From positions 744,001 to 808,000 of the forward strand of contig NC_018721.1 in the NCBI RefSeq assembly GCF_000153485.2: a stretch of 64,000 nucleotides of DNA, in the 5' to 3' direction. Each line of letters opens with the position of its first letter. Positions within the stretch are counted from its first letter, which is position 1. Shown piece by piece: positions 6,909 through 58,275 of the stretch. The notes under the pieces are model-generated. The model saw nothing but the letters and a program-made list of their open reading frames with translations, searched no databases and was not told the origin of the DNA. This stretch comes from Psychroflexus torquis ATCC 700755 (GTDB lineage Bacteria; Bacteroidota; Bacteroidia; Flavobacteriales; Flavobacteriaceae). A program made the position numbers and the translations under genes.

Positions 6909-8087
6909 TTATTTTATCCACTTCTTTAATAAACTATCAATCTCTTTTTCGTTCTTTTCGCTATGTCCAACCTTTGAATACACAATTTTTCCTTTAGTAT
7001 CTATGATGTAGAAAGTAGGATAAGCTCTAACTTTATATTCTTTCGTGACTTTATGATCCACGAAAATTGTTGGATAGCTCATTTTATTTATCTCAATAAA
7101 GTCATTCAGTTTTTCTTTATTCTTTTCTTTATTGTCAAATGGATTTAACCCAAGAATTACTAAATCCTTTGCAGAATATTTAGTCCTTAATTCATTTAGC
7201 GATGCTATTGCTTTTATGCAAGGAAAACAGTCCTTGTACCAAAAGTCTAAAATGACATATTTTCCGTTATGATCTTGTAATGTAATTGAGTCTTTTTCTT
7301 TAAATCTTAATCCTTTAAATTTTGGCGCTTTCAAACCAATAGCCAATGGCTCCATTTCTTTAGGATTAGGTTCTTTATAATCTTCAATTTCATAGTCCTT
7401 AGTTAATCTATCAAACTCCGATTTTAATACTTTATCATTTACTTTATTAAATTTCTCATTTGAAAAATGCCATTCATTATATTGCCATTCGTTTTGAAAT
7501 TTTACCGAATAAATAATATCTTTCAAATAGTTATCATCATTAAAATAAAATATCTTTGTCTGTTTTTCAATTGGTAATTCGTCTTCAAATGCAAATTCTA
7601 TCGTATTGAGATTCTTTTTACCTATTAATGTGTCATTTAACTTTGCGACAATAGTTGAATCTTTTAGATATTTCGAAAGCCTGTTAGGTTTAAGAAAATA
7701 AGAGTCTAAAACTCCGCTTACCGTATTACCTCTTATAACCCCATCTTGTCCTTTTTTCGGGAAGAATTTTGTTATTTTTTTGCTGTTATGATTAATAATA
7801 TAGATGTTCTCTAAATCATAATATCTGTCGATACTATCATTTTTAATCCAAAAACTACCACCGAAGATAGTATCTAACTTATGTTTGATTAGTCTACAAT
7901 TTGAATAGTAGTTCAATGTATCCTCATCAGAACTGAAATATTTCATTTTGTAATGAACATCATATTCCCAAGATTCAGAGTTCAATATTCGATTTTCAAA
8001 TTCAGATACAATCGAATTCGCTGTGTTTTCTTTCTGACAACTAACTATAGTAAGACATATAGCTAAAATGTAAAATATTGTTTTCAT
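6909..8087 (-). CDS. TlpA-like thioredoxin-fold lipoprotein
   Basis: The 392-residue protein has a lipoprotein signal (ICLTIVSC, Cys17), an N-terminal ~240-residue domain without recognisable motifs, and a C-terminal AhpC/TlpA-type thioredoxin fold. The redox motif CFPC occurs in FWYKDCFPCIKA, around residues 285-290, followed by the cis-proline segment AYPTFYIID. It probably acts as a periplasmic thiol-disulfide reductase, like many Bacteroidota TlpA proteins with a long N-terminal extension. It is preceded by a degenerate copy of the cassette leader U, so it may be the last (oldest) gene of the cassette array. Confidence 0.85.
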   Translation of the reverse strand: MKTIFYILAICLTIVSCQKENTANSIVSEFENRILNSESWEYDVHYKMKYFSSDEDTLNYYSNCRLIKHKLDTIFGGSFWIKNDSIDRYYDLENIYIINHNSKKITKFFPKKGQDGVIRGNTVSGVLDSYFLKPNRLSKYLKDSTIVAKLNDTLIGKKNLNTIEFAFEDELPIEKQTKIFYFNDDNYLKDIIYSVKFQNEWQYNEWHFSNEKFNKVNDKVLKSEFDRLTKDYEIEDYKEPNPKEMEPLAIGLKAPKFKGLRFKEKDSITLQDHNGKYVILDFWYKDCFPCIKAIASLNELRTKYSAKDLVILGLNPFDNKEKNKEKLNDFIEINKMSYPTIFVDHKVTKEYKVRAYPTFYIIDTKGKIVYSKVGHSEKNEKEIDSLLKKWIK

Positions 8088-8123
8088 AAATTATTGGATA
8101 GAGGTTTTTTGTCAAATTATGCA

Positions 8124-8245
8124 CAGAACCAATATAAACCCTATTTAAATCTCCAGCATAGGCTCTCTATCTATTAGAACGTTGTTTTTATTTTCATCTA
8201 AACTATCACTTTTATGTATTATCCAATGGTCTTTTCCATGGTTTT
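8124..8245 (-). repeat. Cassette leader module U, copy 1 (degenerate)
   Basis: It keeps recognisable pieces of the U consensus (AACCCTATTTAAATCTCC, AGAACGTTGTTTTTATT, CATCTAAACTATCAC, TATCCAA), but the right half and any A/B module are lost. It lies directly upstream of the thioredoxin-like gene, as every U does relative to its gene. The following ~150 bp (8246-8397) contain nothing recognisable. Confidence 0.55.
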
Positions 8246-8397
8246 GTTGTGAATAGACAAAACTCGAGTATTTATTTCTTTGGTTTTAGTGAATTGATGC
8301 TTCTTTCTTTGCTATGTTAACGAAAGCCTGACCACAGAACATAGCTAGACGCCTCGATGACTTGAGTTTGTATGTATGCACTTAAGTTTGTGATGAG

Positions 8398-8738
8398 CTA
8401 CACAATTAAAAGAGAAGGACTCTTCTTAGCCTCTTTTGATTTGTCTTTACCAGCGTTTTCAATAATTGAGTATAAAGAGCTTTTATCATTATTTTATTTT
8501 TCTGACTCTTTTTTTACTATATAATGAATGATAAAAGGTGCATTAACATCATCAACAAAAGTATTTATATCTTTTTCACTTTTGAATAATGAATCTCAAT
8601 AGTTTTTCTGTGAGAATTGTGTAATACAACTAAATTTTTCCCTATTGTTTTAGAAAGTAATAGTGTTTCCTTTGGTATTGAAACACATGAGGTTATCAAT
8701 GCAATTGTAATTGAAAATAAATTAAATAGAGATTTTAC
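8398..8738 (-). pseudogene. Decayed small lipoprotein gene
   Basis: Reading leftwards from 8738, the frame gives a lipoprotein-like start (SITIALITSC) and continues for about 50 residues. It then shifts frame near 8570 (segment INTFVDDVNAPFIIHYIV) and meets further stops before a last segment SSLYSIIENAGKDKSKE. An ATG is missing where one is expected (GTA at 8736-8738). The pieces read as one protein of about 110 residues with at least one frameshift and a nonsense codon. It begins only 11 bp after the patatin stop, so the two were probably one operon. The product is unknown. Confidence 0.6.
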
Positions 8739-8749
8739 AGTATTAGGTT

Positions 8750-9778
8750 TTAGCTTTGGTAATTGATAAGTTTTTCTACAATTGCATCTAGTTCTTTATC
8801 TATACTCTGAATTGAAATATATGATAAACCATCTTCCTTTAATTTTTGTAAGTTCTCAAGGGATGCGTTGTCCATTTCAGTATCAGCTGTTATTATTTCA
8901 GGTTCAAGGCGGTGATAATCTTTTTGGTCTTGTTCTTCTAATGTTCCAAATATTTGTTTTAAATGATGGTGGACAGTTTTAGAATTACCAGACATCATTA
9001 TTTCTATAATAGGTTTAATCCATCCAATGGCTCCCCAATCTTTGGCTTTCTTATATTCGTAACCTTTACTTACACTACCTGTCCCAATAGATACAATCAT
9101 CATATTTTTAGCAGACGGAAAGTTTTCCATATTTTCAAAAGTCATAGACCTAACTTCTGAGTAGGCGACTAATGAGGGGTTGTTCACAAACACACCACCG
9201 TCTATTAAAGGATAAGGAGTTCCTAGATCATTTTTAACTCGCGCAGGTTCGAAATAGGTTGGGGCTGCAGATGTAGCTCTAGCAACATCTTTAATTTTAA
9301 AATTGTAAATGTCATTATTTGATTTGTGCTGCTTAAAAAAATGAGGTTTACCATTTCTTATGTCGTAAGAACTAATTATACAGGGTTTTAATAAATTTGA
9401 TAATTTCAATTCTCCAAATGTATCTTCAAGAGCTTCTTCAAGTTCAGAAGCGTTATATTTTTCATCTGCTAGACCATTTAGGCTTTTTATTTTTTGCCAA
9501 TTGCTAACATCAAATATGTCATCACCTCTATCTAAATAGATATTTACCGCTTCTTGAGCAGTTAATTTGGGACGGTTTTCTTCATTGGGTGTTAGATAAG
9601 CTAAAGCTAATATACCTCCTGTACTTGTGCCTGCCATAAAATCAAACATATCAGATAGTTTAACATTTGAGTCTCCCATTTTCTCTTGAAGTTTTTGTTC
9701 GATTTGGGTTAATACAATGCCGGGTAAAATACCTCGTATTCCTCCACCATCTAGGGATAGAATTCTGATTTTTTTCAT
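8750..9778 (-). CDS. Patatin-like phospholipase
   Basis: This 342-residue protein has the patatin oxyanion motif DGGGIRG (residues 10-16), the nucleophile elbow GTSTG (Ser52) and the catalytic aspartate in DGG (Asp193). It should hydrolyse acyl esters of phospholipids with a Ser-Asp dyad. The size and motifs resemble CapV, the phospholipase effector of CBASS antiphage systems, but no cyclic-nucleotide synthase gene is present here. The start at 9778 was chosen because the core patatin fold begins directly with KIRILSLDGGG; an upstream in-frame ATG would translate the cassette leader. The gene has a decayed partner downstream. Confidence 0.9.
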   Translation of the reverse strand: MKKIRILSLDGGGIRGILPGIVLTQIEQKLQEKMGDSNVKLSDMFDFMAGTSTGGILALAYLTPNEENRPKLTAQEAVNIYLDRGDDIFDVSNWQKIKSLNGLADEKYNASELEEALEDTFGELKLSNLLKPCIISSYDIRNGKPHFFKQHKSNNDIYNFKIKDVARATSAAPTYFEPARVKNDLGTPYPLIDGGVFVNNPSLVAYSEVRSMTFENMENFPSAKNMMIVSIGTGSVSKGYEYKKAKDWGAIGWIKPIIEIMMSGNSKTVHHHLKQIFGTLEEQDQKDYHRLEPEIITADTEMDNASLENLQKLKEDGLSYISIQSIDKELDAIVEKLINYQS

Positions 9779-9816
9779 GATTTTTTTATTTAATTTATAT
9801 TCTTTTAATGATAGCC

Positions 9817-10039
9817 AACATCCATATAGACCCAATTCAAATCTTAGGTATAGGGAATATACCTATAAAAAAGTTGTTTTTTTAACTGAACTAAGACTTT
9901 TGTATGCTTTATCCAAGGGGCTTTTTGTTAACCACTAAAAATACTGTATTTGAGATTCTAAGGCAACGAAGGTCTGCCAACAGTATTCATTGATCTTTTT
10001 CACTTAAGGACAAACACAGGTTTTCGTCATCTTCATTTC
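9817..10039 (-). repeat. Intercassette element: U plus truncated A module
   Basis: Plus-strand reading starts AACATCCATATAGACCC (U edge), runs through AACTGAACTAAGAC and TTTATCCAAGGGG, and then changes to the A-module start (CTGCCAACAGTATTC). It stops at TTTCGTCATCTTCATTTCG, so the A hairpin and the A 3' end are gone. The stop codon of the next gene (10033-10035) lies inside the A remnant. Confidence 0.7.
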
Positions 10040-10740
10040 GTACTGTCTTCTATAAATGCCCATGGACAACAGTTTGTCGTATCAGAGTTCAATGAAATTT
10101 TGAGTTCCTCTTGATTCCATTCTACATCATAATAGCGGTATCTCTCAAAGAGCAAGTTGTAAGCCGATTTATATAACCCTATACTTTTTAGATAATTAAA
10201 ATTCTCTAGAGCTTTTGCATCTGTCAATGAATCTTCAAATTCTCTAATTTCAATCAATTTGAAAAGCGTGTCATTGACGTGGTCTACATTGTAAGGGATT
10301 GCAATGTCTTGGCACAATATGATCGATACTTCTTTTAATACTTCAAATACGATTGAGTCGTTTTGCTCTGTCCTTCTTCTATCCCAAAACTCTCGGTAGT
10401 ACTTTGATCTAATTTTTTCAGAATCATGGGTGATGAGCAGACTGTCAATGATTTCATCACACGGTTTATTCACGTCTCCTAGAATCCAACACCAATCGTA
10501 GCTGTAGTTATACTCTAGAAATAATCTTCTATATCCAACTTTTTTGAAAGTCTCGTGCGCTACTTTAATATTCTCGGAATTTCTAATCCAAATCGAGCGA
10601 TCAAAGTCCTTATCATAAGGGTCATAAAAGCTCAACATGTTTTCCACATAATATACATTAGAGGAATCAGAATTCTTGTCATACTCGCAGGAGGTAAGTC
10701 CAAGAACTAAAAATATGAATGTGGTAATTATCTGTTTCAA
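10033..10740 (-). CDS. Hypothetical lipoprotein
   Basis: The 235-residue product has a lipoprotein signal ending GLTSC (Cys18) and is then hydrophilic and rich in Tyr, Asp and Glu, with several Trp and Cys residues. I recognise no family. It is one unit of the cassette array: a U leader starts 22 bp upstream of its start codon, and its TGA stop lies inside a truncated A module, so the native 3' end may have been replaced by the element. Confidence 0.7.
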   Translation of the reverse strand: MKQIITTFIFLVLGLTSCEYDKNSDSSNVYYVENMLSFYDPYDKDFDRSIWIRNSENIKVAHETFKKVGYRRLFLEYNYSYDWCWILGDVNKPCDEIIDSLLITHDSEKIRSKYYREFWDRRRTEQNDSIVFEVLKEVSIILCQDIAIPYNVDHVNDTLFKLIEIREFEDSLTDAKALENFNYLKSIGLYKSAYNLLFERYRYYDVEWNQEELKISLNSDTTNCCPWAFIEDSTK

Positions 10741-10762
10741 AGTTTTCTTTCTAATGCCCTAC

Positions 10763-10888
10763 AACATCCGTATAAACCCTTTTCAAATCTTCAGTATAGA
10801 GTATACATCTTTTATAGGTACAGTTTTTTTTAACTAAATTAAGACTTTTACATACTTTATCCAAGGGGCTTTTAGTTAACCCCCTTAA
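10763..10888 (-). repeat. Cassette leader module U, copy 3 (no A/B module)
   Basis: U from AACATCCGTATAAACCC to GGGGCTTTTAGTTAACC. The element ends there, and a plus-strand gene lies beyond. The unit downstream begins GTTGTAGGGCATTAGAAA in gene direction, the same first bases as the unit whose leader ends at 20988. Confidence 0.65.
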
Positions 10889-17529: not shown

Positions 17530-19450
17530 CATTCCAAGCAAAACGTCATTCCGACGACAGGAGGAATCTCTTTCCGTTTTCAGTGATAAAGATTCTTCAC
17601 TTCGTTGCTCTTCGTATAGAATGACAGGGGAAATGCCACTCACAAAGCAAAATGTCATTCCGATGATAGGAGGAATCTCTTTCCGTTTTCAATAGAAAAG
17701 ATTCTTCACATCGTTGCTCTTTGTTCAGAATGACAAGTATTAGAATTCCACTCATAAAGTACACTGTCATTCCGACTATAGGAGGAATCTCTTTCTGTTT
17801 TCAGTAATAAAGATTCTTCACTTCGCTGCTCTTCGTTCAGAATGACACGGGAAATACCACTCACAAAGCAAAATGTCATTCCGATGATAGGAGGAATCTC
17901 TTTCCGTTTTCAATAGAAAAGATTCTTCACATCGTTGCTCTTTGTTCAGAATGACTGGGGAAATACCGCTCATAAAGCAAAATATCATTCCGATACAAAA
18001 TGTCATTCCGACGACAGGAGGAATCTCTTTCCGTTTTCAGTGATAAAGATTCTTCACTTCGCTGCTCTTTGTTCAGAATGACTGGGGAAATACCGCTCAT
18101 AAAGCAAAATATCATTCCGACGACAGGAGGAATCTCTTTTCGTTTTCAGTAATAAAGATTCTTCACTTCGTTGCTCTTCGTTCAGAATGACAAGAAGTAG
18201 CATGCCACTCATAGAGCAAAATGTCATTCCGACGATAGGAGGAATCTCTTTTCGTTTTCAGTAATAAAGATTCTTCACTTCGTTGCTCTTCGTTCAGAAT
18301 GAGTGGGGAAATACCGCTCATAAAGCAAAATATCATTCCGATACAAAATGTCATTCCGACGACAGGAGGAATCTCTTTCCGTTTTCAATAGAAAAGATTC
18401 TTCACATCGTTGCTCTTCGTTCAGAATGACAAGAAGTAGCATGCCACTCATAGAGCAAAATGTCATTCCGACGATAGGAGGAATCTCTTTTCGTTTTCAG
18501 TAATAAAGATTCTTCACTTCGTTGCTCTTCGTTCAGAATGACAAGAAGTAGCATGCCACTCATAGAGCAAAATGTCATTCCGACGATAGGAGGAATCTCT
18601 TTTCGTTTTCAATAGAAAAGATTCTTCACTTCGTTGCTCTTCGTTCAGAATGACAAGAAGTAGCATGCCACTCATAAAGCAAAATGTCATTCCGACGATA
18701 GGAGGAATCTCTTTTCGTTTTCAGTAATAAAGATTCTTCACTTCGTTGCTCTTCGTTCAGAATGACAAGAAGTAGCATGCCACTCATAGAGCAAAATGTC
18801 ATTCCGACGACAGGAGGAATCTCTTTTCGTTTTCAATAGAAAAGATTCTTCACTTCGTTGCTCTTCGTTCAGAATGACAGGGGAAATACCGCTAACAAAT
18901 CAAAATGTCATTCCGACGATAGGAGGAATCTCTTTCCGTTTTCAATAGAAAAGATTCTTCACTTCGTTGCTCTTCGTTCAGAATGACAAGAAGTAGCATG
19001 CCACTCATAGAGCAAAATGTCATTCCGACTATAGGAGGAATCTCTTTCCGTTTTCAGTGATAAAGATTCTTCACTTCGTTGCTCTTCGTATAGAATGACA
19101 GGGGAAATGCCACTCACAAAGCAAAATGTCATTCCGACGATAGGAGGAATCTCTTTCCGTTTTCAATAGAAAAGATTCTTCACTTCGTTGCTCTTCGTTC
19201 AGAATGACTGGGGAAATACCGCTCATAAAGCAAAATATCATTCCGATACAAAATGTCATTCCGACGACAGGAGGAATCTCTTTCCGTTTTCAATAGAAAA
19301 GATTCTTCACTTCGTTGCTCTTCGTTCAGAATGACAAGAAGTAGCATGCCACTCATAAAGCAAAATGTCATTCCGACGATAGGAGGAATCTCTTTCCGTT
19401 TTCAGTGATAAAGATTCTTCACTTCGTTGCTCTTCGTTCAGAATGGCAGG
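17530..19450. repeat. Array of ~110-bp hairpin repeats, block 1 (17 units)
   Basis: Seventeen units, each with GTCATTCCGAcgacAGGAGG, GAATCTCTTT, a short middle, AAAGATTCTTCACTTCG and GTTCAGAATGAC. GTCATTC pairs with GAATGAC and GAATCTCTTT with AAAGATTC, so each unit folds as an imperfect hairpin. Spacers between units come in a few versions (AAGAAGTAGCATGCCACTC, GGGGAAATACCGCTC). Some units carry a partial duplication (ATATCATTCCGATAC). Spacing is 107-127 bp. The minus-strand frames through these units are repetitive and not considered genes. The stretch 17410-17529 holds nothing. Confidence 0.85.
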
Positions 19451-19665
19451 GGAAATGTAGGTTTTTGTGATTTTCACTTGCGCAATTATTTTCAGGGGCA
19501 TTATTTATTTTCAAAAATAATGAGTGGAATAATGGTTATTCCCTATTTGGAAAGCACTCTAAAAACAACCTTCTCTTCTTGTAAGGTTCTTGCCAACTCC
19601 TCGAATTTCCTCTTATTTAAAAATCCCAGATCAGTCAACAAATCATATAGCGGACTCCACTGGCA
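19451..19665 (-). repeat. A module without its U leader
   Basis: From TAGGTTTTTGTGATTTTCAC the sequence is a good A module, including the hairpin ATTATTTATTTTC/AAAAATAATGAG and the GAGAAGGTTGTTTTT segment (on the minus strand). It ends in the short version AGCGGACTCCACTGGCACTA, which lacks the CATATGCTTAGTT end. The U half is replaced by repeat block 1. In gene direction this copy still encodes an uninterrupted remnant peptide (see findings). Confidence 0.7.
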
Positions 19666-20971: not shown

Positions 20972-20985
20972 TTCTAATGCCCTAC

Positions 20986-21127
20986 AACATCCATATAACC
21001 CCTATTTAAATCTTCAGTAGAGGGCATATCTGTTAAAGATGTCGATTTTATTTTTATCTAAATTAACACTTTCACACATATTATCCAAGGGCCTTTTAAT
21101 TAACCACTGAAAATGCTGAATTCAAGA
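20986..21127 (-). repeat. Cassette leader module U, copy 4, cut by repeat block 2
   Basis: A typical U (AACATCCATATAACCCC, CTAAATTAACACTTTC, ATTATCCAAGGG) runs to ATGCTGAATTCAAGATTCT and there passes directly into a unit of the 110-bp repeat (TTCATTTCGTTGC). AAGATTCT is common to both repeat families, so the join may be a recombination at shared sequence. Confidence 0.7.
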
Positions 21128-25044: not shown

Positions 25045-25071
25045 AGTTTTATGCTTTTTTTCATGTTTTAC

Positions 25072-25753
25072 AACAACCACATAACCTATTAAAATTTTCA
25101 GTGGAAGGCATATCAACTAAAGATGTTAATTTTATTTTTATCTAAATTAACACTTTCATATATATTATCCAAGGGACTTTTAATTAACCATTAAAATACT
25201 GCATTCAAGATTTTAATACAATGGAGGTTTCCAACACTACTCGTTTATCTTTTTCCTTATGCCAAATTAAATTTATAATGTCACATAAATAAATTGAATT
25301 ATACTACGACGTAGCTCAGCACAGGTTTTTTGATTTATTGAAGTTAAAAATAATTAGCATAGCCTTAGCTACGATAATTATTTTTGATAAAAAGTAGGCG
25401 AAAAAAGCCTGTGCCGAATTCGTATCGGTAAAACGATTTATTGCGACATTATAGGTTTAATTTGGTATTAAAGGGCAAACGCAAGTTTTCGTCATTTTCA
25501 TTTCTACAATTATTTTCAGTGACGATATTTATTCTCAAAAATAATAAGTGGAATAAAGGCACTCCCCTATTTGGAAAGCAGTTCAAAAACAACCTTCTCC
25601 TCTTATAAGGTTCTTACCAACTCCTCGAATTCCCTCTTATTTAAAAATCGGATCGGTCAACAAATCATTTAGCGGACACCACTTAGCCTGCCTGTTGTGC
25701 CTTGGCAGGCAGGCGTGGAAGTGATGGCCTATCGGCACGCCATATGCTTAGTT
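25072..25753 (-). repeat. Intercassette element: U plus A module with nested MITE and GCCTGCC hairpin
   Basis: U (from AACAACCACATAACC) is followed by an A module interrupted by a 204-bp inverted-repeat element (25262-25465). The A module then continues with its hairpin, the decayed coding segment and the end CATATGCTTAGTTTTTGTAGC. A perfect hairpin GCCTGCCTG/CAGGCAGGC (25686-25714) is also inserted. The TAA stop of the next gene (25748-25750) is part of the AACTAAGC end of the element. Confidence 0.75.
25262..25465. mobile_element. MITE-like element
   Basis: The ends are 21-base terminal inverted repeats with two mismatches (CCAAATTAAATTTATAATGT and its near complement). The 204-bp interior has no gene but more pairing: GCACAGG...CCTGTGC and AAAAATAATTAGC/GATAATTATTTTT. 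It splits an A module whose two parts are recognisable from the other copies. Flanking TTA on both sides may be a target duplication. Confidence 0.7.
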
Positions 25754-27149: not shown

Positions 27150-27346
27150 GCCTAACGTTTAGTACAAAAGAATTAGGACTGTAAATAAGGGATTAACTTT
27201 CAGATTAACCACAAGCCAAATCTTTTACATTTTGTTTTATCTTATTTTTCTAAAAGCCAAATTGAAAGATTTGGCGACCTCGCAAATATGCGTGAACCAT
27301 TGGGTTTAAAACTTATTTGTCCTATTTTTTAATACTTATGTTGTGG
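27150..27346 (-). other. attC-like junction with 11-bp paired arms
   Basis: On the plus strand it starts GCCTAACG (a match to RYYYAAC) and ends TTATGTTGTGGTGCG. GCCAAATCTTT (27215-27225) and AAAGATTTGGC (27265-27275) are perfect arms. The bases GTTGTGGTGC at the right edge recur inverted at the other end of the neighbouring unit (28064-28073). It is the best classical-type site next to that at 40584-40655. Confidence 0.55.
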
Positions 27347-27387
27347 TGCGTTTTTATGCCACGTTTTGTTTTTATTCAATTTTCCAT

Positions 27388-28023: not shown

Positions 28024-28070
28024 TCCTAAATTTTATTGGTTGTCACAAGATTTTTTTTTAGATGCACCAC

Positions 28071-28397
28071 AACATCCATATGAACCCTATTAAAATCTTC
28101 AGTATAGGATATATATTTAGAACGTTGTTTTATTATCAACTAAACTAACACTTTCATATATATTATCCAAAGGACAATTAACTACTAAAATACTGTATTC
28201 AAGATTCTAAAGCAACGGAGGATTACTATTGCAAAATCTGGTAGGCCTTATGATGAAAATTACGTTTCTGTATTGCCTAAATAAAGAAAAATCAATTTAA
28301 AAAGCATAATGAATCAGTTTTATGAATCTCTGAGTCAAGACTACTCCTGTTTCAAATTAATGTAGAAAAAGGTTGCTTTTTACCTCAGTTCTTTGTT
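28071..28397 (-). repeat. Intercassette element: U plus B module
   Basis: The U edge is AACATCCATATGAACCC; the B module runs from TTACTATTGCAAAATCTGG to CCTCAGTTCTTTGTT. The unit to its left starts GTTGTGGTGCATC. The unit to its right ends with plus-strand GTTATAGC (28395-28402), which recurs inverted at 30796-30803, the other end of that unit. Confidence 0.8.
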
Positions 28398-28411
28398 ATA
28401 GCAAGTGTTGA

Positions 28412-30760: not shown

Positions 30761-30800
30761 AAAAGTGAAAATTGAATGAATTTAATCTCGGATTGGCTAT

Positions 30801-33901: not shown

Positions 33902-33917
33902 TTCTTAAATTGGCTAC

Positions 33918-34337: not shown

Positions 34338-34351
34338 ATTGCTACACGCAT

Positions 34352-35218: not shown

Positions 35219-35226
35219 ATGTGTGC

Positions 35227-35658
35227 TATCATCCCCATAACCCCTATTCAAATCTTCAGTGTAGGCTATACATCTATTTAGGACTTTGTTTTTATTATCA
35301 ACTAAACTAACACTTTCAAACATTTTATCCAAGAAACTTTTAATTAACCACTAAAAATACTGCATTCAAGATTCTAAGGCGACGAAGGATTGCCAACACT
35401 ACTCGCTTATTCTTTTTTATTATATCGCAAACGCTGGTTTTTGCCATTTTCATTTTCACAATTATTTTCAGTGGCACTATTTATTTTATAAAAATAAATA
35501 GTGGAATAAAACGGTCTTCCTAATTGCAAAGCATTCTAAAAACAAGCTTCTCCTCTTGTAAGGTTCTTGCCAACTCATCGAATCCCCCCTTATTTAAAAT
35601 CTTGGATCAGTCAACAATTCATATAGCGCTAGTCTATCGGCAAGCCATATGCTTAGTT
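35227..35658 (-). repeat. Intercassette element: U plus A module inside the tandem duplication
   Basis: Starts ATCATCCCCATAACCCC, with the same unusual edge (ATC for AAC) as the next copy at 36547. Its U has one extra A in the TTATTTTTGT stretch, which joins it in frame with the gene; this is why a longer frame exists. The A coding segment is frameshifted here. Confidence 0.8.
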
Positions 35659-35672
35659 ATTGCTACACGCAT

Positions 35673-36539
35673 TTATTCCGTGTTGATTAGTTTACCATTC
35701 TCGTAAGTTTCCGTTTTGGTCAGTTTTCCTTGTTCGTCGAAATATGTCCAAACTCCGTCTTTTTTTAATCCGTTACCATAAAATCCGCTCTCGCTTATTT
35801 TTCCATTTTCGTGAAATTCAGTAAAATTTCCAGTTACAAGTCCATTGTCATAATTTGCCAGAAGTCGGATATTTCCATTTTCGTAATATGCGGTAAAAGA
35901 TTTGTAAGTCAGATTATCGAGTGGAAATCTTGTCTCGCCAGTTTTATTTTGGTGTCGGTCAAAATCTATCGTTATCAAATGAGTAAAATCACGATACTTT
36001 ATTTTTTTCACAAAGCCTGTATCATCATAATTTTCTGAAACCACTTCGCCAGATTCCGGAATTTTCTCTTCCTCCGCTCCGAGAATGACTTTTACATTTG
36101 GCATTCTTTGTACTTTTACAATATCTATACTGTAAATTTTGGTAAAGTTATTTTCGTTAAGGAACGAAGTTTCTAAATAATCTTTACTATCATTTTTCTT
36201 CCCCATTGGGAATTGATAAACCACATAATTAAGTTTAGAATTTCCGTCAATCGGAACGACTAATTTTTTGTTGAAATTGTCAAAATCAATTTTTGCATTC
36301 GATAAGGTTTCGTTGAAATCATCAACCATTTTTTGAATATAATCCGAACCTGCGCTTTTTTGATACTCCTTAATTCTCATTTTTATTGTATCCTCAAATG
36401 AATTGAAAAATTCAGTGTAATCTTTTTGCTTTATCAATTCTAAAACACCCTTTGATGTTTTCACAGCTTTTTTGTCATTTTGAGCAAATCCAAATTGAGT
36501 TATCAAAATTAAAATGGTAAATACGATTGTTTTTTTCAT
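35673..36539 (-). CDS. MORN-repeat secreted protein, copy 2
   Basis: Same protein as copy 1 with three substitutions, including KEYQKSAGSDYIQKM for EEYQKSAGSDYIQKT. Both copies are intact and each has its own U leader and A module. The repeat period is 1321 bp, exactly one cassette, so a whole cassette was duplicated or integrated twice. The signal peptide and MORN-variant repeats suggest a periplasmic or surface protein of unknown role. Confidence 0.8.
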   Translation of the reverse strand: MKKTIVFTILILITQFGFAQNDKKAVKTSKGVLELIKQKDYTEFFNSFEDTIKMRIKEYQKSAGSDYIQKMVDDFNETLSNAKIDFDNFNKKLVVPIDGNSKLNYVVYQFPMGKKNDSKDYLETSFLNENNFTKIYSIDIVKVQRMPNVKVILGAEEEKIPESGEVVSENYDDTGFVKKIKYRDFTHLITIDFDRHQNKTGETRFPLDNLTYKSFTAYYENGNIRLLANYDNGLVTGNFTEFHENGKISESGFYGNGLKKDGVWTYFDEQGKLTKTETYENGKLINTE

Positions 36540-36546
36540 ATGTGTG

Positions 36547-36892
36547 CTATCATTCCCATAACCCCTATTCAAAACTTCAGTATAGGGTATATATCTATTT
36601 AGGACGTTGTTTTTATCACAAACTAAACTAACACTTTCACACATAGCATCCAAGGGGACTTATAATTAAACCTCTCAAGATTTTGCATTCAAGATTCTAA
36701 GGCGATGGAAATTTTGCTATTGCAAAATCTGGTAGGCCTTATAATGAAAGTTATGTTTTTGTGTTGCCTGAATAAATAGAGAAAAATCATTTAAAAAAGC
36801 TCAAAGAATCAGTTTTATGAATCCATAAGCCTAGACTACAAGTGTTTCAAATTAAAGTAGAAAAGAGTTGTTTTTTACCTCAGTTCTTTGTT
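36547..36892 (-). repeat. Intercassette element: U plus B module
   Basis: U edge ATCATTCCCATAACCCC, B end CCTCAGTTCTTTGTTAGC. The terminator-like part is at 36793-36830. This element follows an A-type element around the same gene, showing that A and B are freely combined with U. Confidence 0.8.
36793..36830 (-). terminator. B-module terminator (example)
   Basis: In gene direction GCTTATGGATTCA and TGATTCTTTGAGC pair imperfectly around AAAAC and are followed by TTTTTT, the form of an intrinsic terminator. The same stem and T-tract occur in all nine B modules, about 80-100 bp after each gene end. Confidence 0.6.
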
Positions 36893-37022
36893 AGCTGCTG
36901 TGGTTTAATTCGAGAAAACACGAACTAGCAATGTATTAGTCTACCTATTTATTCCGTAACGTGTTCAAAAAGGCACATTTTATTGGGTAGATTCAAGGTA
37001 TAGGTATCATAACTTGGAATCG

Positions 37023-39000: not shown

Positions 39001-39057
39001 TTTTGAATTTATTTTATTGGGATTACTTATAGTTTAAGTTAGTATTCAATTACCTAC

Positions 39058-39397
39058 AACATACGTATAACCCCTATTCAACTCTTTGGTATAGGGCATA
39101 TATCTATTTAGAGCGTTGTTTTATTATCAACTAAACTAACACTTTCAAATATTTTATCCAAGGGACTTATAATTAAACCTCTCAAGATGCTGCATTCAAG
39201 ATTCTAAAGCAACGGATGTTTTTCTATCACAAAATCTGGAAGGCCCTATTGAAAGTTATGTTTATGTGTTGCCTAAATAAATAGAGAAAAATCAAATAAA
39301 AAAGCTCAAAGAATCAGTTTTACGAATCCATGAGCCTAGACTACTTCTGTTTCAGATTAATAAAAAAAAGAGTTGTTTTTTACCTCAGTTCTTTGTT
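39058..39397 (-). repeat. Intercassette element: U plus B module
   Basis: U edge AACATACGTATAACCCC, B end CCTCAGTTCTTTGTTAGC. In gene direction it follows the frameshifted MORN/TPR gene and leads into the 54-residue gene. Confidence 0.8.
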
Positions 39398-39409
39398 AGC
39401 TGTCTGGCT

Positions 39410-40583: not shown

Positions 40584-40655
40584 TACCAACGCTCACCTAT
40601 ATGACGGTCATGCCCAGCTTTTGCTAGACATGACCGTCATATAAAATGTTAGGTA
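40584..40655 (-). other. Classical-size attC-like site
   Basis: In gene direction it starts ACCTAAC (fits RYYYAAC) and ends AGCGTTGGT. The inner arms ATATGACGGTCATG (40599-40612) and CATGACCGTCATAT (40629-40642) are perfect complements around a 16-base loop. Size (72 bp), edge bases and the stem are those of an integron attC. The right-hand unit begins and ends with GTTAGGTATCRTG in opposite orientation (40648-40660 and 41071-41083). Confidence 0.65.
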
Positions 40656-40771
40656 TCGTGTTAATGGTTCTCTTGTCCTTTTTTGATTAATCATTAAGCA
40701 ATTAAACACATTGATTTAAGTTTTTTGAATTCACACTCAAATAGTAGGACTCTAATTTGGTATGAAATGCA

Positions 40772-41029: not shown

Positions 41030-41080
41030 TTTACGATAGTTATAATTTTAGCGGTTGTTTATTTTTTCTTCATGATACCT

Positions 41081-41489
41081 AACATCCTCATAACCCTATT
41101 CAAATCCTCTGTATAGGATATATACATATTTAGGACGTTGTTTTATTTTTTATCTAAACTAACACTTTTGTATACTTTATCCAAGGGACTTCTAATTAAC
41201 CATTAAAATACTGCATTCAAGATTCTAAGGTGACGTAGGTTTGACAATACTAATCGTTTATTTTTTCTTTATAGGCCATATGTAAGTTTACATCATCTTC
41301 ACTTCCGTAATTATTTTCAGGGACACTATTTATTTTAATGAATAATTACTGTCATAAAGGTACTTCCCTATTTGGAAAGCACTCTAAAACAATCTTTTCC
41401 TCTTGTAAGGTTCTTGCCAACTCATCGAATTTCCCCTTACCAGCAATCCCGGAGCAGTCAACAAATCATTTAGCGGTCTCCGCTGGCAC
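41081..41489 (-). repeat. Intercassette element: U plus short-ended A module
   Basis: U edge AACATCCTCATAACCC; A module ends in the short form AGCGGTCTCCGCTGGCAC, without the CATATGCTTAGTT end. The same short end occurs at ~19660. The next gene's TAG stop overlaps its last base pairs. Confidence 0.75.
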
Positions 41490-42310
41490 TATTTTTCAGT
41501 TCCTTCCAACATTTTTTGAAGTTCAGAATTTGTCTTTTCTCCAATAATATCAGTTAGTTCCCCTGTTACGTTGTTGTATTTTTTAATGATAGTTGGCTCA
41601 TTCAAATCCTCATATTTCCCATCATTATTTTTGTCAATTCCGAAACTTACAATCAAGTCTTTACTTTCATTTAAAAACTTATAAGAAACAATATCCATTT
41701 CCTCATTCTCTATTTTTTTTAATCTCTTTTCGCTTAATGAATAAATATAAAGTGATTTAAAATCTGATAAATTTATAACACCATCTTTGTACGTGTCTTT
41801 TTCAGCAACTTTAAATAACAAAAGGATATCGTCAACAAAATATTCCACTTTTATGTCATTGAAGTTAACTCTTTTCTCAAATAGTTTGTTGGTCAAATTA
41901 TTTTTTTGATTGTAAATAATCAGATTGTTATAAGAGCCATAGAATCGTCTTGAATATCTACTATCTTCAGAATCATACCCTTTTCTAATACTTAGAAGAC
42001 CATTAATGTTTTCTGCTTCATTTAAGTTTTTATGAGAAACAGGAATTATGTATACTGAATTTAAAGTGTCAATCAGTTTTGGGTTTTCATAGGATATTAC
42101 TTGTTCTCGTTTATTTTCGTTTTGCAATTCTTCGATTTTCTCATCTGAAAGAATTCCAGTTTCTATATCGTCATCATTGTTAAATCTAAAGAAATCTGAA
42201 ATTGCTGCTCCTCCTATTCCTAAAATTGAAACAATTACTAAAATAATAGCAAGTGTTCCAAGAATTGCTAGAATTTTTTGATTGTAATTTTTTACTTTCT
42301 CTATTTTCAT
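41489..42310 (-). CDS. Hypothetical membrane-anchored protein
   Basis: The 273-residue protein has a single transmembrane helix (about residues 14-33, ILGTLAIILVIVSILGIGG) and a soluble domain rich in Asn, Lys and Glu. A segment reading FGIDKNNDGKYEDLNEPTI resembles an EF-hand-like calcium loop (D-x-N-x-D-G). No family is recognised. The 3' end is fused to an A module. Confidence 0.65.
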   Translation of the reverse strand: MKIEKVKNYNQKILAILGTLAIILVIVSILGIGGAAISDFFRFNNDDDIETGILSDEKIEELQNENKREQVISYENPKLIDTLNSVYIIPVSHKNLNEAENINGLLSIRKGYDSEDSRYSRRFYGSYNNLIIYNQKNNLTNKLFEKRVNFNDIKVEYFVDDILLLFKVAEKDTYKDGVINLSDFKSLYIYSLSEKRLKKIENEEMDIVSYKFLNESKDLIVSFGIDKNNDGKYEDLNEPTIIKKYNNVTGELTDIIGEKTNSELQKMLEGTEK

Positions 42311-42335
42311 TTATCGTTCGGTTTTAATGAAGTAC

Positions 42336-42674
42336 AACATCCCCATAACCCCTATTCAAATCCTCAGTATAGGTCATATATCTATTTAGGACGTTGTTTT
42401 ATTTTTATCTAAACTAACACTTTCACACATAGTATCCAAGAGCCTTTTAATTGACCACTGAAGATGCTGTATTCAAGATTCTGAAGCAGCAGATGTTTAC
42501 AATTACAAAATATGGTAGGCCTTATGATGAAAGTTACATTTCTGTGTTGCTTAAATAGATAGCGAAAAATCAATTAAAAAAGCTCAAAGAATCAGTTATA
42601 TGATTCCATGAGCCTAGACTACTCCTGTTTTAAATTAAAGTAGAAAAGAGTTGTTTTTGACCTCAGTTTTTGTT
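42336..42674 (-). repeat. Intercassette element: U plus B module
   Basis: U edge AACATCCCCATAACCCC, B end CCTCAGTTTTTGTTGTAG. The right unit begins GTTGAGGC and ends with the complement of GTTGTAGACC. Confidence 0.8.
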
Positions 42675-42687
42675 GTAGACCGTGTAT

Positions 42688-43206: not shown

Positions 43207-43248
43207 TATGAATTTTTGTGGTTAATATAAATAGTTTTAAATAGCCTC

Positions 43249-43675
43249 AACATCCGTATAACCCCTATTCAAATCCTCAGTATAGGGTATATATCTATTT
43301 AGAACGTTGTTTTATTTTTATCTAAACTAACACTTTCACACATAGTATCCAAGAGCCTTTTAATTAACCACTGAAGATGCTGCATTCAAGATTATATAGC
43401 TACGCAGGATTGCAAATACTACTCACTTATTTTTCCCTTTTAGGGCAAACGTAGGTTTTGTGATTTTCACTTGCGCAATTATTTTAAGGGCATTATTTAT
43501 TTTCAAAAATAATGAGTGGAATAAAGGTATTTCCCCATTTGGATAGCAGTTTAAAAACGACCTTCTCATCTTGTAAGGTTCTTGCCTACTCATCGAATTC
43601 CCCCTTATCTAAAAATCATGAATCAGTTAACAAATCATATAGCGTTGGCCTGTCGGCACGCCATATGATTAGTTG
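43249..43675 (-). repeat. Intercassette element: U plus A module
   Basis: U edge AACATCCGTATAACCCC; A module with CATTATTTATTTTC/AAAAATAATGAG hairpin and end GCCATATGATTAGTTGTTG. The coding remnant of A contains stops in this copy. Start (GTTGGCGGTAAT) and end (GTTGTTGCCCATAAT) of the right unit are partly complementary. Confidence 0.8.
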
Positions 43676-43726
43676 TTGCCCATAATACTTCTACATACTA
43701 CTAGACAATACATTCTTCCTATTAGT

Positions 43727-45099: not shown

Positions 45100-45126
45100 T
45101 TTCTTTTTATTTTTTTAATTACCGCC

Positions 45127-45465
45127 AACATCCATATAACCCCTATTCAAATCCTCAGTATAGGGTATATATCTATTTAAAACGTTGTTTTATTATCAAC
45201 TAAACTAACACTTTCATATATAGTATCCAAGGGACTTATATTAACCACTGAAAATACTGCATTCAAAATTCTAAGGCGACGGAGGATTGCTGTAGCAAAA
45301 TCTGGTAGACCTTATGATGAAAGTTAGGTTTCTGTGTTACCTAAATAAATAGAGAAAAATCAATTTAAAAAGCTCAAAGAATCAGTTTTATAAATCAATG
45401 AGCCTAGACTACTCCTGTTTCAAATTAAAGTAGAAAAGAGTTGTTTTTACCTCAATTCTTTTGCT
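45127..45465 (-). repeat. Intercassette element: U plus B module
   Basis: U edge AACATCCATATAACCCC; B end CCTCAATTCTTTTGCTAAC. The right unit starts GTTAGCAAAAATTT and ends with plus-strand GCTAACAAAAGTTT, identical at 11 of 14 positions in the inverted sense. Confidence 0.8.
45200..45230 (-). promoter_or_regulatory. Promoter-like pair conserved in the U leader (example copy)
   Basis: In gene direction TTG (in CCTTGG) is followed after 20 bases by TAGTTTAG, one mismatch from the Bacteroidota -7 box TAnnTTTG. On the plus strand this is the CTAAACTAACAC ... TATCCAAG core, the best conserved part of U in nearly all 23 copies. A start near the -7 box would leave a leader of about 80 bases containing the hairpin ACCCTAT/ATAGGGGT close to the start codon. 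Confidence 0.5.
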
Positions 45466-45476
45466 AACAAAAGTTT

Positions 45477-47045: not shown

Positions 47046-47100
47046 ATTAAATGTAATAAAAAATATTGATACTTTCTGTTTTTTCTTTTAAATTTTTGCT

Positions 47101-47440
47101 AACATCCATATAACATTTACTAAAATCCTCATTATAGAATGTATATCTATCTAAAACATTGTTTTATTACAAACTAAACTAACACTTTCACACATAGTAT
47201 CCAAGGGACTTATATTAACCACTAAAGATGTTGCATTCAAGATTCTAAGGCGACGAGTATTTGCTATTGCAAAATCTGGTAGGCCTTATGATGAAATGTA
47301 CGTTTCTGTGTTACCTAAATAAATAGCGAAAAAATCAATTAAAAAAACTCAAAAAATCAGTTTTACGAATCCATGAGCCTAGACTACTCCTGTTTCAAAT
47401 TAAAGTAGAAAAGAGTCGTTTTTTACCTCAGCTCTTTGTT
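47101..47440 (-). repeat. Intercassette element: U plus B module
   Basis: U edge AACATCCATATAACATT, B end CCTCAGCTCTTTGTTGCC. The right unit (MazEF-type) starts GTTACC and ends with the complement of GTTGCC. Confidence 0.8.
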
Positions 47441-47479
47441 GCCATTCGTACTTTCCTCAGTCTTATTCCGAATTTAATT

Positions 47480-48065: not shown

Positions 48066-48108
48066 AGTACATAATATTCAGTTCGCAAAGTTTTTATAAA
48101 ATTAAGGT

Positions 48109-48447
48109 AACATCCGTATAACCCCTATTTAAATACTTAGTACAGAATACATATCTATTTAGGACATTGTTTAATTACCAACTAAATTAACACTTTCACA
48201 CATAGTATCCAAGTGACTTATATTAACCACTGAAAATACTACATTCAAGATTCTAAAGCAACGGAGGATTACTATCGCAAAATCTGGTAGGCCTTATGAT
48301 GAAATGTACGTTTCTGTGTTGCCTAAATAAATGAAGAAAAATCAATTTAAAAAAACAATGAATCAGTTTTATGAATCTCTGAGGCAAGACTACTAATGTT
48401 TCAAATTAAAGTAGAAAAAAGTTGTTTTTTACCTCAGTTCTTTTGTT
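48109..48447 (-). repeat. Intercassette element: U plus B module
   Basis: U edge AACATCCGTATAACCCC, B end CCTCAGTTCTTTTGTT. The TGA stop of the next gene (48434-48436) lies within the AACTGAGG end of B, so the element supplies the stop codon. Confidence 0.8.
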
Positions 48448-48847
48448 TTTCATTCACTCGTTTTCTAATATTCAAAAGGCTTGGGATTATTAATACGAAC
48501 TGTACAAAAATCACAAATACAATTAAAGCAATTACAATAGTCCAAATATTTTCTTTTTCTATATTTTCAAAATAATTCAAAATCACCATTGCTATTGGTA
48601 TATAAATAAAAGAATAGAAATTCGGAATTGGGATTATTTTCATCTTTAAATCATTATCCGTTTTAAAAATAAATTCAGGCGAATAATAGTCGGCATAATT
48701 TCCGGGTAAATATTTCACGAAATATTTAAATTCGCATTTATATTTAGTTGTTATTGAAGAACCGTTTTCAAACATAACTTTTCTATTCCCTTCTAATTTA
48801 GTCGGGATAAAATGTTTTAAAAAAAGTTGTTTGTCTATTTTGGTCAT
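48434..48847 (-). CDS. Hypothetical two-helix membrane protein
   Basis: The 137-residue protein has a soluble N-terminal part (FENGSSITTKYKCEFKYFVK) and two hydrophobic helices (about residues 78-92 and 99-123), ending in a basic tail NIRKRVNEKQKN. The last codons and stop are in the B module. No family is recognised. Confidence 0.65.
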   Translation of the reverse strand: MTKIDKQLFLKHFIPTKLEGNRKVMFENGSSITTKYKCEFKYFVKYLPGNYADYYSPEFIFKTDNDLKMKIIPIPNFYSFIYIPIAMVILNYFENIEKENIWTIVIALIVFVIFVQFVLIIPSLLNIRKRVNEKQKN

Positions 48848-48860
48848 TCAAATTAAAGCT

Positions 48861-49289
48861 AACATCCCCATAACCCCCATTCAAATCCTCAGTATAGGAT
48901 ATATATATATTTAGGACTTTGTTTTATTTTTATCTAAACTAACACATTCATATATAGTATCCAAGGGACTTTTAATTAACCTCTCAAGATGCTGCATTCA
49001 AGATTCTAATACAACGAAGGATTACCAACCCTGCTCGTATATTCTTTTTCATTACAAATCAAATTCAGGTTTTTGTCATTTTCATTTGCGTAATTATTTT
49101 TAGGGACACTAGTTATTTTATAAAAATAATTAGTATCACAAAAGTGCTTCCCTATTTGGATAGCACACTAAAAACCACCTTCTCCTCTTGTAAGATTCTT
49201 GCTAACTCATAGAATTCCCTTTATTTAAAAACCCCAGATAAGTCAACAAATCATATAGCTTTGACCTGTCGGCAACCATATGCTTAGTT
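48861..49289 (-). repeat. Intercassette element: U plus A module
   Basis: U edge AACATCCCCATAACCCC, A end CCATATGCTTAGTTATT. After this end the right unit reads ATCTCTAG on the plus strand, complementary to the unit's start GTTATCTTTA at 51976 leftwards. Confidence 0.8.
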
Positions 49290-49296
49290 ATTATCT

Positions 49297-51944: not shown

Positions 51945-51973
51945 TTTTCTGTTGTTTTGTTTAAATTAAAGAT

Positions 51974-52313
51974 AACATCCATATAACCCCTATTCAAATC
52001 TTCAGTATAGGGTATATATCTATTTAAGATGTTGTTTTATTATCAACTAAACTAACACTTTCACACCTAGTATCCAAGGGACTTTTAATTAACCACAAAA
52101 AATGCTGCATTCAAGATTCTAAAGCTACGGAGTTCTGCCATCACAAAATCTGATAGGCCTTATGATAAAATTACGTTTCTATGTTGCTTAAATAGATAGC
52201 AAAAAATCAATTAAAAAAAGCTCAAAGAATCAGTTTTACGAATCCATAAGCCTAGACTACAAGTGTTTCAAATTAAAGTAGAAAAGAGTTGTTTTTTACC
52301 TCAGTTTTTTGCT
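51974..52313 (-). repeat. Intercassette element: U plus B module
   Basis: U edge AACATCCATATAACCCC, B end CCTCAGTTTTTTGCT. The right unit ends GCTGTGTGTAGTGC on the plus strand and begins GTTGTATGTAATGC in gene direction (11 of 14 identical). Confidence 0.8.
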
Positions 52314-52325
52314 GTGTGTAGTGCT

Positions 52326-53246: not shown

Positions 53247-53253
53247 TACATAC

Positions 53254-53520
53254 AACATCCGTATAAACCCTATTCAACTCTTCAGTATAGGGTATAAATC
53301 TATTTAGGACGTTGTTTTATTTTTATCTAAACTAGCACTTTTGTATACTTTATCCAAGTAACTTATAATTAAAACTCTCAAAATGCTGCATCCAAGATTC
53401 TAAAGCAACGAAAGTTTGCCAACACTCTTGGCTTATCTTTTTCATTACAAAGTAAACGCAGGTTTTTGTTATTTTCACTTCCACAATTATTTTTAGATGT
53501 ATTTTTCTTTTTTTCGAGGC
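53254..53520 (-). repeat. Intercassette element: U plus truncated A module
   Basis: U edge AACATCCGTATAAACCC; the A start (GTTTGCCAACACTC) is kept up to TTTCACTTCCACAATTATTTTTAGA, then lost. Between 53521 and 53633 lies AT-rich sequence with GGTAACGTTTTTTACATGG and CGGTTGTTATG, possibly a small attC-like edge pair, but no gene. Confidence 0.65.
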
Positions 53521-55013: not shown

Positions 55014-55028
55014 CTTTTAGTTTTGCAC

Positions 55029-55477
55029 AACATCCCAATAACCCCTATTCAAATCCTCAGTATAGGATATATCTATTTAGGACGCTGTTTTATTATCAAC
55101 TAAATTAACACTTTCATATTTATTATCCAAGGAAATCATAGCTAACCACTAAAAATGATGCATTCTAGGTTCTAATGCATCGGAGGAAAGCCAACACTAC
55201 TCGCTTATTTTTTCCTTTTAACGCAAACGCAGGTCTTAATCATTTTCACTTCCGTATTTATTTTCAGGGACACTATTTATTTTCAAAAATAATGAGTTTC
55301 ATAGGGGTGTTTCCGTATTTTGAAAGCAATTTAAATACAACCTTCTATTCTTGTAAGGTTAATGCCAACTCATCGTATTCCCCCTTATTTAAAAAGCCCG
55401 GATCAATCAATAAATCATATAGTGGTCTCCACTTAGCCTGCTTGTCGTGCCTTGACAGGCAGGCCATATACTTAGTT
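55029..55477 (-). repeat. Intercassette element: U plus A module with GCCTGCC-type hairpin
   Basis: U edge AACATCCCAATAACCCC; A module with AATTATTTT-type hairpin near 55275 and GCCTGCTTG/CAGGCAGGC insertion (55437-55464); end CCATATACTTAGTTATT. The unit to the right ends AGCTACAATAC, matching GTTACTCAGAATAC at its start near 57451. Confidence 0.8.
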
Positions 55478-57413: not shown

Positions 57414-57444
57414 AAATTATGGTTCAATGATTTATTTGTATTCT

Positions 57445-57533
57445 GAGTAACGTTTTGTTCACACCTTGTTTTTACTGGTATTCAGGCTAGCTTAATGTCA
57501 CTCATTCTTGCATCTAAATTATATATGTTAAAT
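57445..57533 (-). other. Compact attC-like junction
   Basis: In gene direction it runs from GGATTTAAC (fits RYYYAAC) to AACGTTACTCAG. It is 89 bp long and has no U, A or B sequence. Internal pairing is weak (GCTAGC near its middle is a small palindrome). Confidence 0.4.
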
Positions 57534-57555
57534 CCGTCGTTGGATTTCATAAGTA

Positions 57556-57966
57556 TTAATCTCTTCTACGTTTTCTCTTATCAGAAAGAATAGTTAATTG
57601 AAAAATCTCATAGATTATTTCTGTAGTTCCGAATCCACTCCATTCATCAAATTCCAAATCTTCGTTTCTTTGAAAATATTTTAAATAAAGTGTTGGCATT
57701 CCTTTATAAAAATCAAGAAATAAATATGAAGTATAATCATATATTCCTAAATCGGCAAATTCATTTAATAAGGAAGTATTCCAAACAGTACATTCTCCTG
57801 TTTTAGATTCGTATCCAGACATTTCAAATCTTTTGTGTTGTTTCTCAATTTGGTCTGATTCTAAATATCTCATTGAACTTTTTACATTTTCACTGAAACT
57901 CAATCTTTGTCTAATGAAGTTCATTACTTCATTTTTAGACTTACTTTTTAATTCTTCTGTTGTCAT
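57556..57966 (-). CDS. Hypothetical protein
   Basis: The 136-residue protein is hydrophilic, with a helical start (TTEELKSKSKNEVMNFIRQR), a central strand part (KTGECTVWNTSLLNEFADLG, YTSYLFLDFYKGMPTLYLKY) and a basic end (SDKRKRRRD). No family is recognised. In gene direction it is the first gene of the array, next to the outermost U element. Confidence 0.6.
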   Translation of the reverse strand: MTTEELKSKSKNEVMNFIRQRLSFSENVKSSMRYLESDQIEKQHKRFEMSGYESKTGECTVWNTSLLNEFADLGIYDYTSYLFLDFYKGMPTLYLKYFQRNEDLEFDEWSGFGTTEIIYEIFQLTILSDKRKRRRD

Positions 57967-58004
57967 ATTTTGGTTTTATGTATGTCATTGGTCAAATTGC
58001 AAAC

Positions 58005-58275
58005 AACATCCCCATAACCCCTATTAAAATCTTCAGTATAGAGCACATATCTATTTATAACGCTGTTTTTATGACCAACTAAACTAACACTTTCATATAT
58101 AGTATCCAAGGGACTTTTAATTAAATACTAAAAAATTATGATTTAAAATTCTAATACAACGAATATTTGTCAACATTACTCACATATTCTCTTTCACTAC
58201 AAAGCAAATGCAGATTTTCGTCATTTTCACTTCCGTCATTATTTTTAGAGACACTCCTTATTTTATAAAATTCAA
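58005..58275 (-). repeat. Outermost intercassette element: U plus truncated A module
   Basis: U edge AACATCCCCATAACCCC; A sequence runs to ACACTCCTTATTTTATAAAATTC, where the hairpin is cut. In gene direction this is the start of the array, where an integron would have attI and a divergent integrase; neither is present. The gap to 58419 holds no gene. Confidence 0.75.

Follow-up and report, generated by a model that had tools for sequence, protein, structure and literature searches.

What separates the genes of the long one-strand array in Psychroflexus torquis ATCC 700755, and can an array be of the integron type when its junctions look nothing like integron recombination sites? The stretch that raises this question, here called the window, comprises 64,000 nucleotides (positions 744001-808000 of the 4.32-Mb single-contig genome, NC_018721.1), and all window coordinates are given relative to its position 1. 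Short gene units alternate in it with copies of one long repeated element, which an earlier note had taken for a possible new class of attC, the site by which integron cassettes recombine. The junctions are instead scars that carry the tail of an integrase gene together with a docking site (attI), and not giant new recombination sites. The whole is probably a chromosomal cassette array of the integron type with its integrase in trans, in which scars made of insertion sequence (IS) ends, integrase remnants and attI would act as extra attI sites.

A profile search recovered 23 copies of a module, U, between 8.1 and 58.1 kb and on one strand only (weakest E 3.9e-16), in agreement with the 23 element copies counted before. 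Module mapping placed a second module, A, beside nine of them and a third, B, beside eight. Three U copies (at 9.8, 53.3 and 58.0 kb) adjoined a B remnant and three (at 8.1, 10.8 and 21.0 kb) were bare. The earlier description of each element as U plus A or B held for the 17 full elements but not for these six. From the U edge to the A or B edge, 16 of the 17 measured 332-485 bp (about 330-480 bp in the earlier note), while the remaining one (25070) contained an insert and reached 681 bp. Mean pairwise identity was 0.80 in U, 0.70 in the 52 nt beside it, 0.88 in A (n=9) and 0.79 in B (n=9). Unit edges, which were set by hand from the profile maps, were for the most part of the GTT type, as had been noticed. 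Some 40 genes, all on the minus strand, had been reported; we found 38 minus-strand open reading frames (ORFs) of at least 90 aa in 6909-58275, some of them overlapping, but the array was interrupted by a plus-strand gene of 2016 aa (11359-17409) and by tandem repeats. Pfam matches in the array included PIN, Fic, HEPN, a pPIWI-associated nuclease, Prim-Pol plus exonuclease, a UvrD-like helicase, nickel superoxide dismutase, a beta-lactamase-family protein and patatin, and 12 of the 30 proteins scanned had no Pfam match at the thresholds used. No Rfam family matched the window at gathering scores.

By alignment, U comprises the final ~20 codons and the stop of a gene for a 379-aa recombinase, followed by about 50 bp ending in GGATGTT. 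Aligned integrase-end sequences part directly past the GTT of U. Outside the window, U copies adjoin genes for tyrosine recombinases, or fragments of such genes, at 3.77, 3.16 and 2.05 Mb. Judging from these alignments, U is the 3′ end of the integrase gene plus its attI. When U and its neighbouring stretch were searched in 60 genomes, P. torquis included, three matched: its own, that of P. gondwanensis (G022), where copies are numerous, and G016, which gave a single weak match.

The other two modules are, by their neighbours elsewhere in the genome, ends of insertion sequences. Outside the window A runs into a reversed IS110-type transposase gene, and two of the 12 PF02371 matches (3146141-3146401 and 1868855-1869100) lie within 100 bp of A copies. 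A DEDD/Transposase_20 gene thus adjoins the A end, as expected of IS110/IS1111, and on this evidence A is an IS110-family end. B runs into a reversed gene for an IS91-type transposase that has Y2 and zinc-binding domains (at the copy at 1505167, PF04986 5.7e-37 and PF14319 1.4e-29), which makes it, on the same kind of evidence, an IS91-like end. All three modules are present elsewhere in the genome. The earlier note had named dispersal of the modules away from cassette edges as a sign against a cassette array; A and B do occur in this way, as IS ends, and several of the U copies elsewhere stand at integrase 3′ ends.

Wherever the sequence was readable, A and B abutted the R″ arm of cassettes. 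In the regions fetched, nine of 42 canonical attC matches started only at about R″, and one of these, when read, lay at the far end of an IS91 copy, from which we infer that the IS had split the attC at R″. At five loci a longer scar was found, composed of an IS91 fragment, ~180 bp round the integrase gene start, as many as 86 codons of the integrase end, which is more decayed at four of the loci, and attI; the IS91-integrase fusion spans ~1.1-1.3 kb. In their composition the window scars look like shortened versions of this fusion.

IS91 elements move by one-ended rolling-circle transposition, and such events could have assembled the array by each time placing a block of IS91 origin, integrase remnant, attI and cassette at the R″ of the last cassette. 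The identity of B as the 3′ end of a Y2-transposase element and the likeness of the fusion at all five loci fit this account. We regard it as doubtful, however: nine junctions bear an IS110 end instead, the duplicate shared by contigs L175 and L176 has no whole scar on either side, and the events would account for the origin of the junctions but not for the cassette arms.

If the scars carry attI, an integrase has to be sought. The window has none, as the earlier note had stated: a local integrase was ruled out, as no PF00589 match was found there (the whole genome has 16). An intact integrase gene lies at 3.77 Mb, far outside the window, and has a U beside it, so that the expected recombinase next to a U does exist, though it is XerA-like and not of the IntI type. 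At E 1e-50 or better it is present in one copy in the genome. It is 97% identical to its P. gondwanensis homolog, with non-synonymous (dN) and synonymous (dS) divergences of 0.013 and 0.122 and a dN/dS of 0.11, and by these rates it is under purifying selection. Directly upstream of it is a small divergent ORF with a zinc-finger-like start (L034:2693-3052).

Over residues ~90-355 the best sequence and fold matches of the integrase were to archaeal-type XerA (NF040815; PDB 4a8e and 5hxy), end to end, at scores under the cut-offs of both NF040815 and TIGR02249. IntI4 (2a3v) matched it in two pieces that left chain residues 215-242 unmatched, and the IntI additional-domain insertion was absent from all 18 aligned integrases. 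A classical IntI elsewhere in the same genomes was also considered and set aside, none of the seven exceeding the TIGR02249 cut-off; none of 14 control genomes did so either, and this cut-off therefore had no positive control. These comparisons make it a XerA-like integrase without the additional domain said to define IntI. It differs from archaeal-type XerA in an extra conserved N-terminal domain and in its attC cassette arrays, besides scoring below the NF040815 cut-off. The N-terminal domain (residues 1-90) has strands and helices in the predicted full model. No confident sequence family was found for it (HARP only, at E 0.09 in one of 16 sequences and E 0.43 in one of 18), a PDB profile search gave nothing under E 0.14, and the VIA-align rows, which span residues 86-379, scarcely cover it.

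Relatives show what the system looks like where its sites are intact. A scan with the integrase gave 47 loci, and strong homologs were present in five of 393 genomes of the order, P. torquis included. In Algibacter amylolyticus (L067) the integrase is followed by same-strand units of one or two genes with ten 136-141-bp sites between them. Unit ends there were complementary at all 60 positions scored (mean 23.6 and maximum 56 under permutation), against 22 of 60 for the two flanks of one site, and all ten sites form hairpins whose outer arms pair. A single-contig genome of the same family (G168) had 26 attC profile matches on the integrase strand and none on the opposite strand. Both edges could be set by motif at 21 of the 26 sites, and in the 19 scorable units 104 of 114 end positions were complementary (permuted mean 53.8, maximum 82). 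The motif TATAY-NNN-TG|TTR occurs shortly past the integrase stop in seven arrays of relatives, in Algibacter and in the genome of the window.

A chain search for exact-arm cassettes covered 44 of the 47 loci. A cassette starting near the integrase stop was found at 16 of them and two or more cassettes at nine. Ten shuffles per locus yielded at most two links at one locus and at most one elsewhere, so single links may be chance. Exact chains numbered zero for both arrays of G100 and for G168, G029 and G024, and one for G229 and G380; the G168 array was settled by the attC profile after its exact chain had come out at zero. In Epilithonimonas (L087, 1585-9211), repeats of ~40-160 bp lie upstream of a 42% integrase homolog, with a two-link divergent chain; this is possibly a divergently placed array.

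Three traits of integrons are thus present in this group: an attI beside the integrase where the cassettes begin, same-strand cassettes separated by attC (in Algibacter and G168), and cassette-specific R″/R′ arms (in both) with a single-strand hairpin (10 of 10 sites folded). An integrase with the IntI additional domain is not. With attI, attC and array present but the IntI-defining domain absent, we class the system as a variant integron.

Complementary unit ends, which the earlier note had reported for several units, were recovered in the window. Over 15 units, 50 of 90 end positions matched (permuted 30.4±5.0, p 1e-4). The match remained at 42 of 72 (permuted 23.4±4.4, p 2e-5) in 12 units, when three units with an internal attC, one tandem duplicate and four units with an unplaceable 3′ edge were left out. 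The ends of a unit matched each other at a mean of 3.3 of 6 positions and the two flanks of one element at 1.7 of 6. At least two compact attC with perfect 10-nt arms lie within window units (Table 1), each closing the first cassette after an internal U, and a decayed one was recognised by eye near 38.7 kb. A hidden Markov model (HMM) of the Algibacter attC had no match in the window; the arm-complementarity search then found the two compact sites, and the null result is therefore a limit of that model. At 11 other attI loci of the genome, the arms matched at 6 of 6 positions in five cases and at 0-3 of 6 in three, and no edge was found at three. Being above chance yet below canonical cassettes, the arms of the window cassettes look like relics.

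The array was compared with that of P. gondwanensis ACAM 44 (NZ_APLF01000005). On the left, 98% identity extends as far as the distal end of the first U; on the right, 93% identity stops within 2 bp of the last U's GTT edge. Between the flanks P. gondwanensis has other cassettes, and among the units seen only one, cassette c, is shared with the window. That a sister species has different units at this locus bears out the earlier suggestion of an integron-type cassette array without a local integrase. In the fetched regions another P. gondwanensis unit had a 93% copy in a separate array of the P. torquis genome, at 2.96 Mb. The head U of P. gondwanensis is followed by a cassette with a normal attC (R′ GTTATAGGGC, R″ GCCCTATAAC) and then by cassette c, which in the window is joined straight to a U. 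A further cassette with a normal attC stands at a U edge in contig L175. The P. gondwanensis contigs end in scar repeats, so much of the array appears to be missing from them. Two separate P. torquis arrays (G000:C1 2053782-2054678 and 3151870-3154022) share a stretch of 485 bp that starts at an attI and is 100% identical, and another of 417 bp that is 99.8% identical, suggesting recent movement.

The earlier note had proposed comparing strains for gain or loss of units at GTT edges. The shared right flank ends within 2 bp of such an edge; the breakpoints of the duplicated units examined fall inside scars. A unit duplicated between L175 and L176 is near-identical from the far U end to ~30 bp into B, and the tandem pair of cassette c in the window (34342-35226 and 35663-36547) is accompanied by mosaic scars. 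These mosaics and in-scar breakpoints indicate that homologous recombination also acts.

They likewise favour, together with the decayed R′/R″ arms, a dead array with inert scars, in which the two species would differ only through homologous recombination between scars and deletion; in-scar breakpoints were present in both duplicated units examined. We consider such an array unlikely. It does not agree with the perfect-arm canonical cassette at a U edge in P. gondwanensis, nor with three further ones (two from the window, one from L175), with the purifying selection on the integrase, or with the near-identity of the 485- and 417-bp stretches at an attI elsewhere.

Folding bears on the junctions themselves. 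Twelve of the 23 long elements were folded, as the earlier note had proposed, with z between -2.1 and +0.3 and outer ends paired in two of the 12, whereas ten canonical attC gave z of -4.3 to -8.7 with outer ends paired in all ten. The hairpin with paired outer arms that an attC requires is thus lost from the elements folded. That U+A and U+B form a new class of very long attC folding as a whole is highly improbable and was rejected, for although the ends of each unit are complementary above chance and the elements are regularly spaced between units, the elements form no such hairpin, A and B were identified as ends of IS and U as the end of a gene with attI, and normal compact attC exist in the same array.

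The explanation we prefer is a cassette array that would be served in trans by the integrase encoded at 3.77 Mb. This integrase has its attI at the 3′ end of the gene that encodes it, so that cassettes lie downstream on the same strand. The cassettes would at first have carried folded compact attC. IS110-family (A) and IS91-like (B) elements would then have entered at the R″ arm of attC, and a rearrangement joining an IS end to a truncated integrase 3′ end with attI (U) would have left a scar at most junctions. Joining attI with folded attC, the integrase may insert cassettes at any intact attI, U copies within scars included. Each scar would thus be an extra attI, allowing insertion at many places, and spare attI sites seem to be numerous in the array. 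The scars may have multiplied by homologous recombination, perhaps also by IS91-type transposition, and homologous recombination between them would shuffle and duplicate units.

Several observations weigh against this explanation. The integrase lacks a domain held necessary for single-stranded attC recombination, and at 28 of 44 integrase loci, several of which lie less than 1.5 kb from the end of their contig, no exact-arm cassette was found downstream. A matching R″ was missing at six of the 11 other attI loci, where the edge motif may have taken a later cassette. The breakpoints of duplicated units fall inside scars and not solely at GTT, so that homologous recombination alone could account for part of the turnover. 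A U-side cassette with attC at its other end is also what any two-cassette unit would have.

Known systems resemble the array in part. Sedentary chromosomal integrons of the Vibrio type and clusters of attC sites lacking integron integrases (CALIN) share with it a one-strand array of mostly single-gene units, cassette-specific R′/R″ arms, hairpin attC (here in relatives) and an attI beside the integrase. Unlike in these, the integrase here lacks the IntI additional domain and falls under the TIGR02249 cut-off, attI is at the integrase 3′ end with the array downstream on the same strand, and most attC of the window are replaced by IS-integrase-attI scars. Reversed integrases have been reported in Spirochaetota. 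In Delta-attI-type cassettes of class 1 and 2 integrons a whole or partial attI takes the place of the attC past the gene (PMC12901181), and U likewise stands on the 3′ side of units in the window. Here, however, the replacement affects most of the array, ~115 bp of integrase end and attI are fused to an IS end, and the recombinase is different. As a precedent for the mechanism proposed here, cassettes with attI in place of attC are reported to excise and insert with IntI1, and excision exceeds 97% where a cassette has an identical site at either end, as with two attI1 (PMC12901181). Among IS1111 elements, ISKpn4 and ISPst6 are known to target one end of attC (PMC11187229). Module A is similarly an IS110/IS1111-family element at one attC end, but it comes from Bacteroidota and just its end remains at the window junctions.

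The features of the array are listed in Table 1. Tandem repeats of 112 bp (GTCATTCCGACGATAGGAGGAATCTC type; 17537-19437 and 21202-21987) break it, next to a B that has no U and a U that has no B. The 2016-aa protein encoded on the plus strand combines alpha-2-macroglobulin (A2M) domains with a carboxypeptidase-regulatory-like domain and a TonB plug, and a second A2M gene lies at 58420-63909. Direct repeats of 157 bp, 95% identical, at 497-653 and 6465-6621 enclose an RND efflux operon. Outside the window, an insert resembling a group II intron, as read from its ends (~3772110-3772829), interrupts an attC, with the left part of the site on one side of it and CGTT on the other; portions of the insert recur as close copies at 2933570, 3741212 and 3746292.

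Table 1. Junctions, compact attC sites and selected units of the cassette array (window coordinates)
Feature	Positions	Strand	Basis or remark
Bare U, distal array end	8123..8235	-	left flank 98% identical in P. gondwanensis up to here
U + B remnant	9815..10040	-	module map
Bare U	10761..10873	-	module map
B (IS91-like end) without U, adjoins tandem repeats	19446..19661	-	module map
Bare U, then tandem repeats	20984..21098	-	module map
U + B junction with insert	25070..25750	-	module map
Compact hairpin attC within unit	27154..27349	-	z -6.7; R″ GCACCACAAC complementary to R′ GTTGTGGTGC, U edge 28069
U + A junction	28069..28400	-	module map
U + B junction	30799..31283	-	module map
U + A junction	32496..32840	-	module map
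U + B junction	33905..34342	-	module map
Cassette c (MORN-repeat gene)	34342..35226	-	97% copy is second cassette in P. gondwanensis array
U + B junction	35226..35663	-	module map
Cassette c, tandem duplicate	35663..36547	-	pair comparison
U + A junction	36547..36895	-	module map
U + A junction	39056..39400	-	module map
Compact hairpin attC within unit	40588..40657	-	z -8.7; R″ GATACCTAAC complementary to R′ GTTAGGTATC, U edge 41079
U + B junction, unit-side edge uncertain	41079..41497	-	module map
U + A junction	42334..42678	-	module map
U + B junction	43247..43679	-	module map
U + A junction, genome-search query	45125..45468	-	module map
U + A junction	47099..47443	-	module map
U + A junction	48107..48449	-	module map
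U + B junction	48859..49294	-	module map
U + A junction	51972..52316	-	module map
U + B remnant	53252..53497	-	module map
U + B junction	55027..55477	-	module map
Head element: truncated integrase end + attI + B remnant	58003..58272	-	right flank common with P. gondwanensis to within 2 bp of GTT edge

No description of such integrons in Flavobacteriia was found in the titles and abstract openings listed from the open-licence PMC literature, preprints lying outside that scope. The chances seem evenly balanced that they represent a second integron lineage of Bacteroidota, in which an XerA-type recombinase without the I2/additional domain would insert folded single-stranded attC cassettes, with the conserved N-terminal domain (residues 1-90) as a candidate fold-recogniser and the Psychroflexus array as a form with attI at most junctions. 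In the literature the additional domain defines IntI, is used in searches and is held to be what allows single-strand attC recombination. Surveys based on that domain would be expected to miss integrons of this kind. With near-perfect attC arms beside an integrase that lacks the added domain, the need for the domain becomes directly testable. The window itself is a natural experiment, with attC replaced by attI-bearing scars at ~20 junctions, on whether cassettes can live on attI alone.

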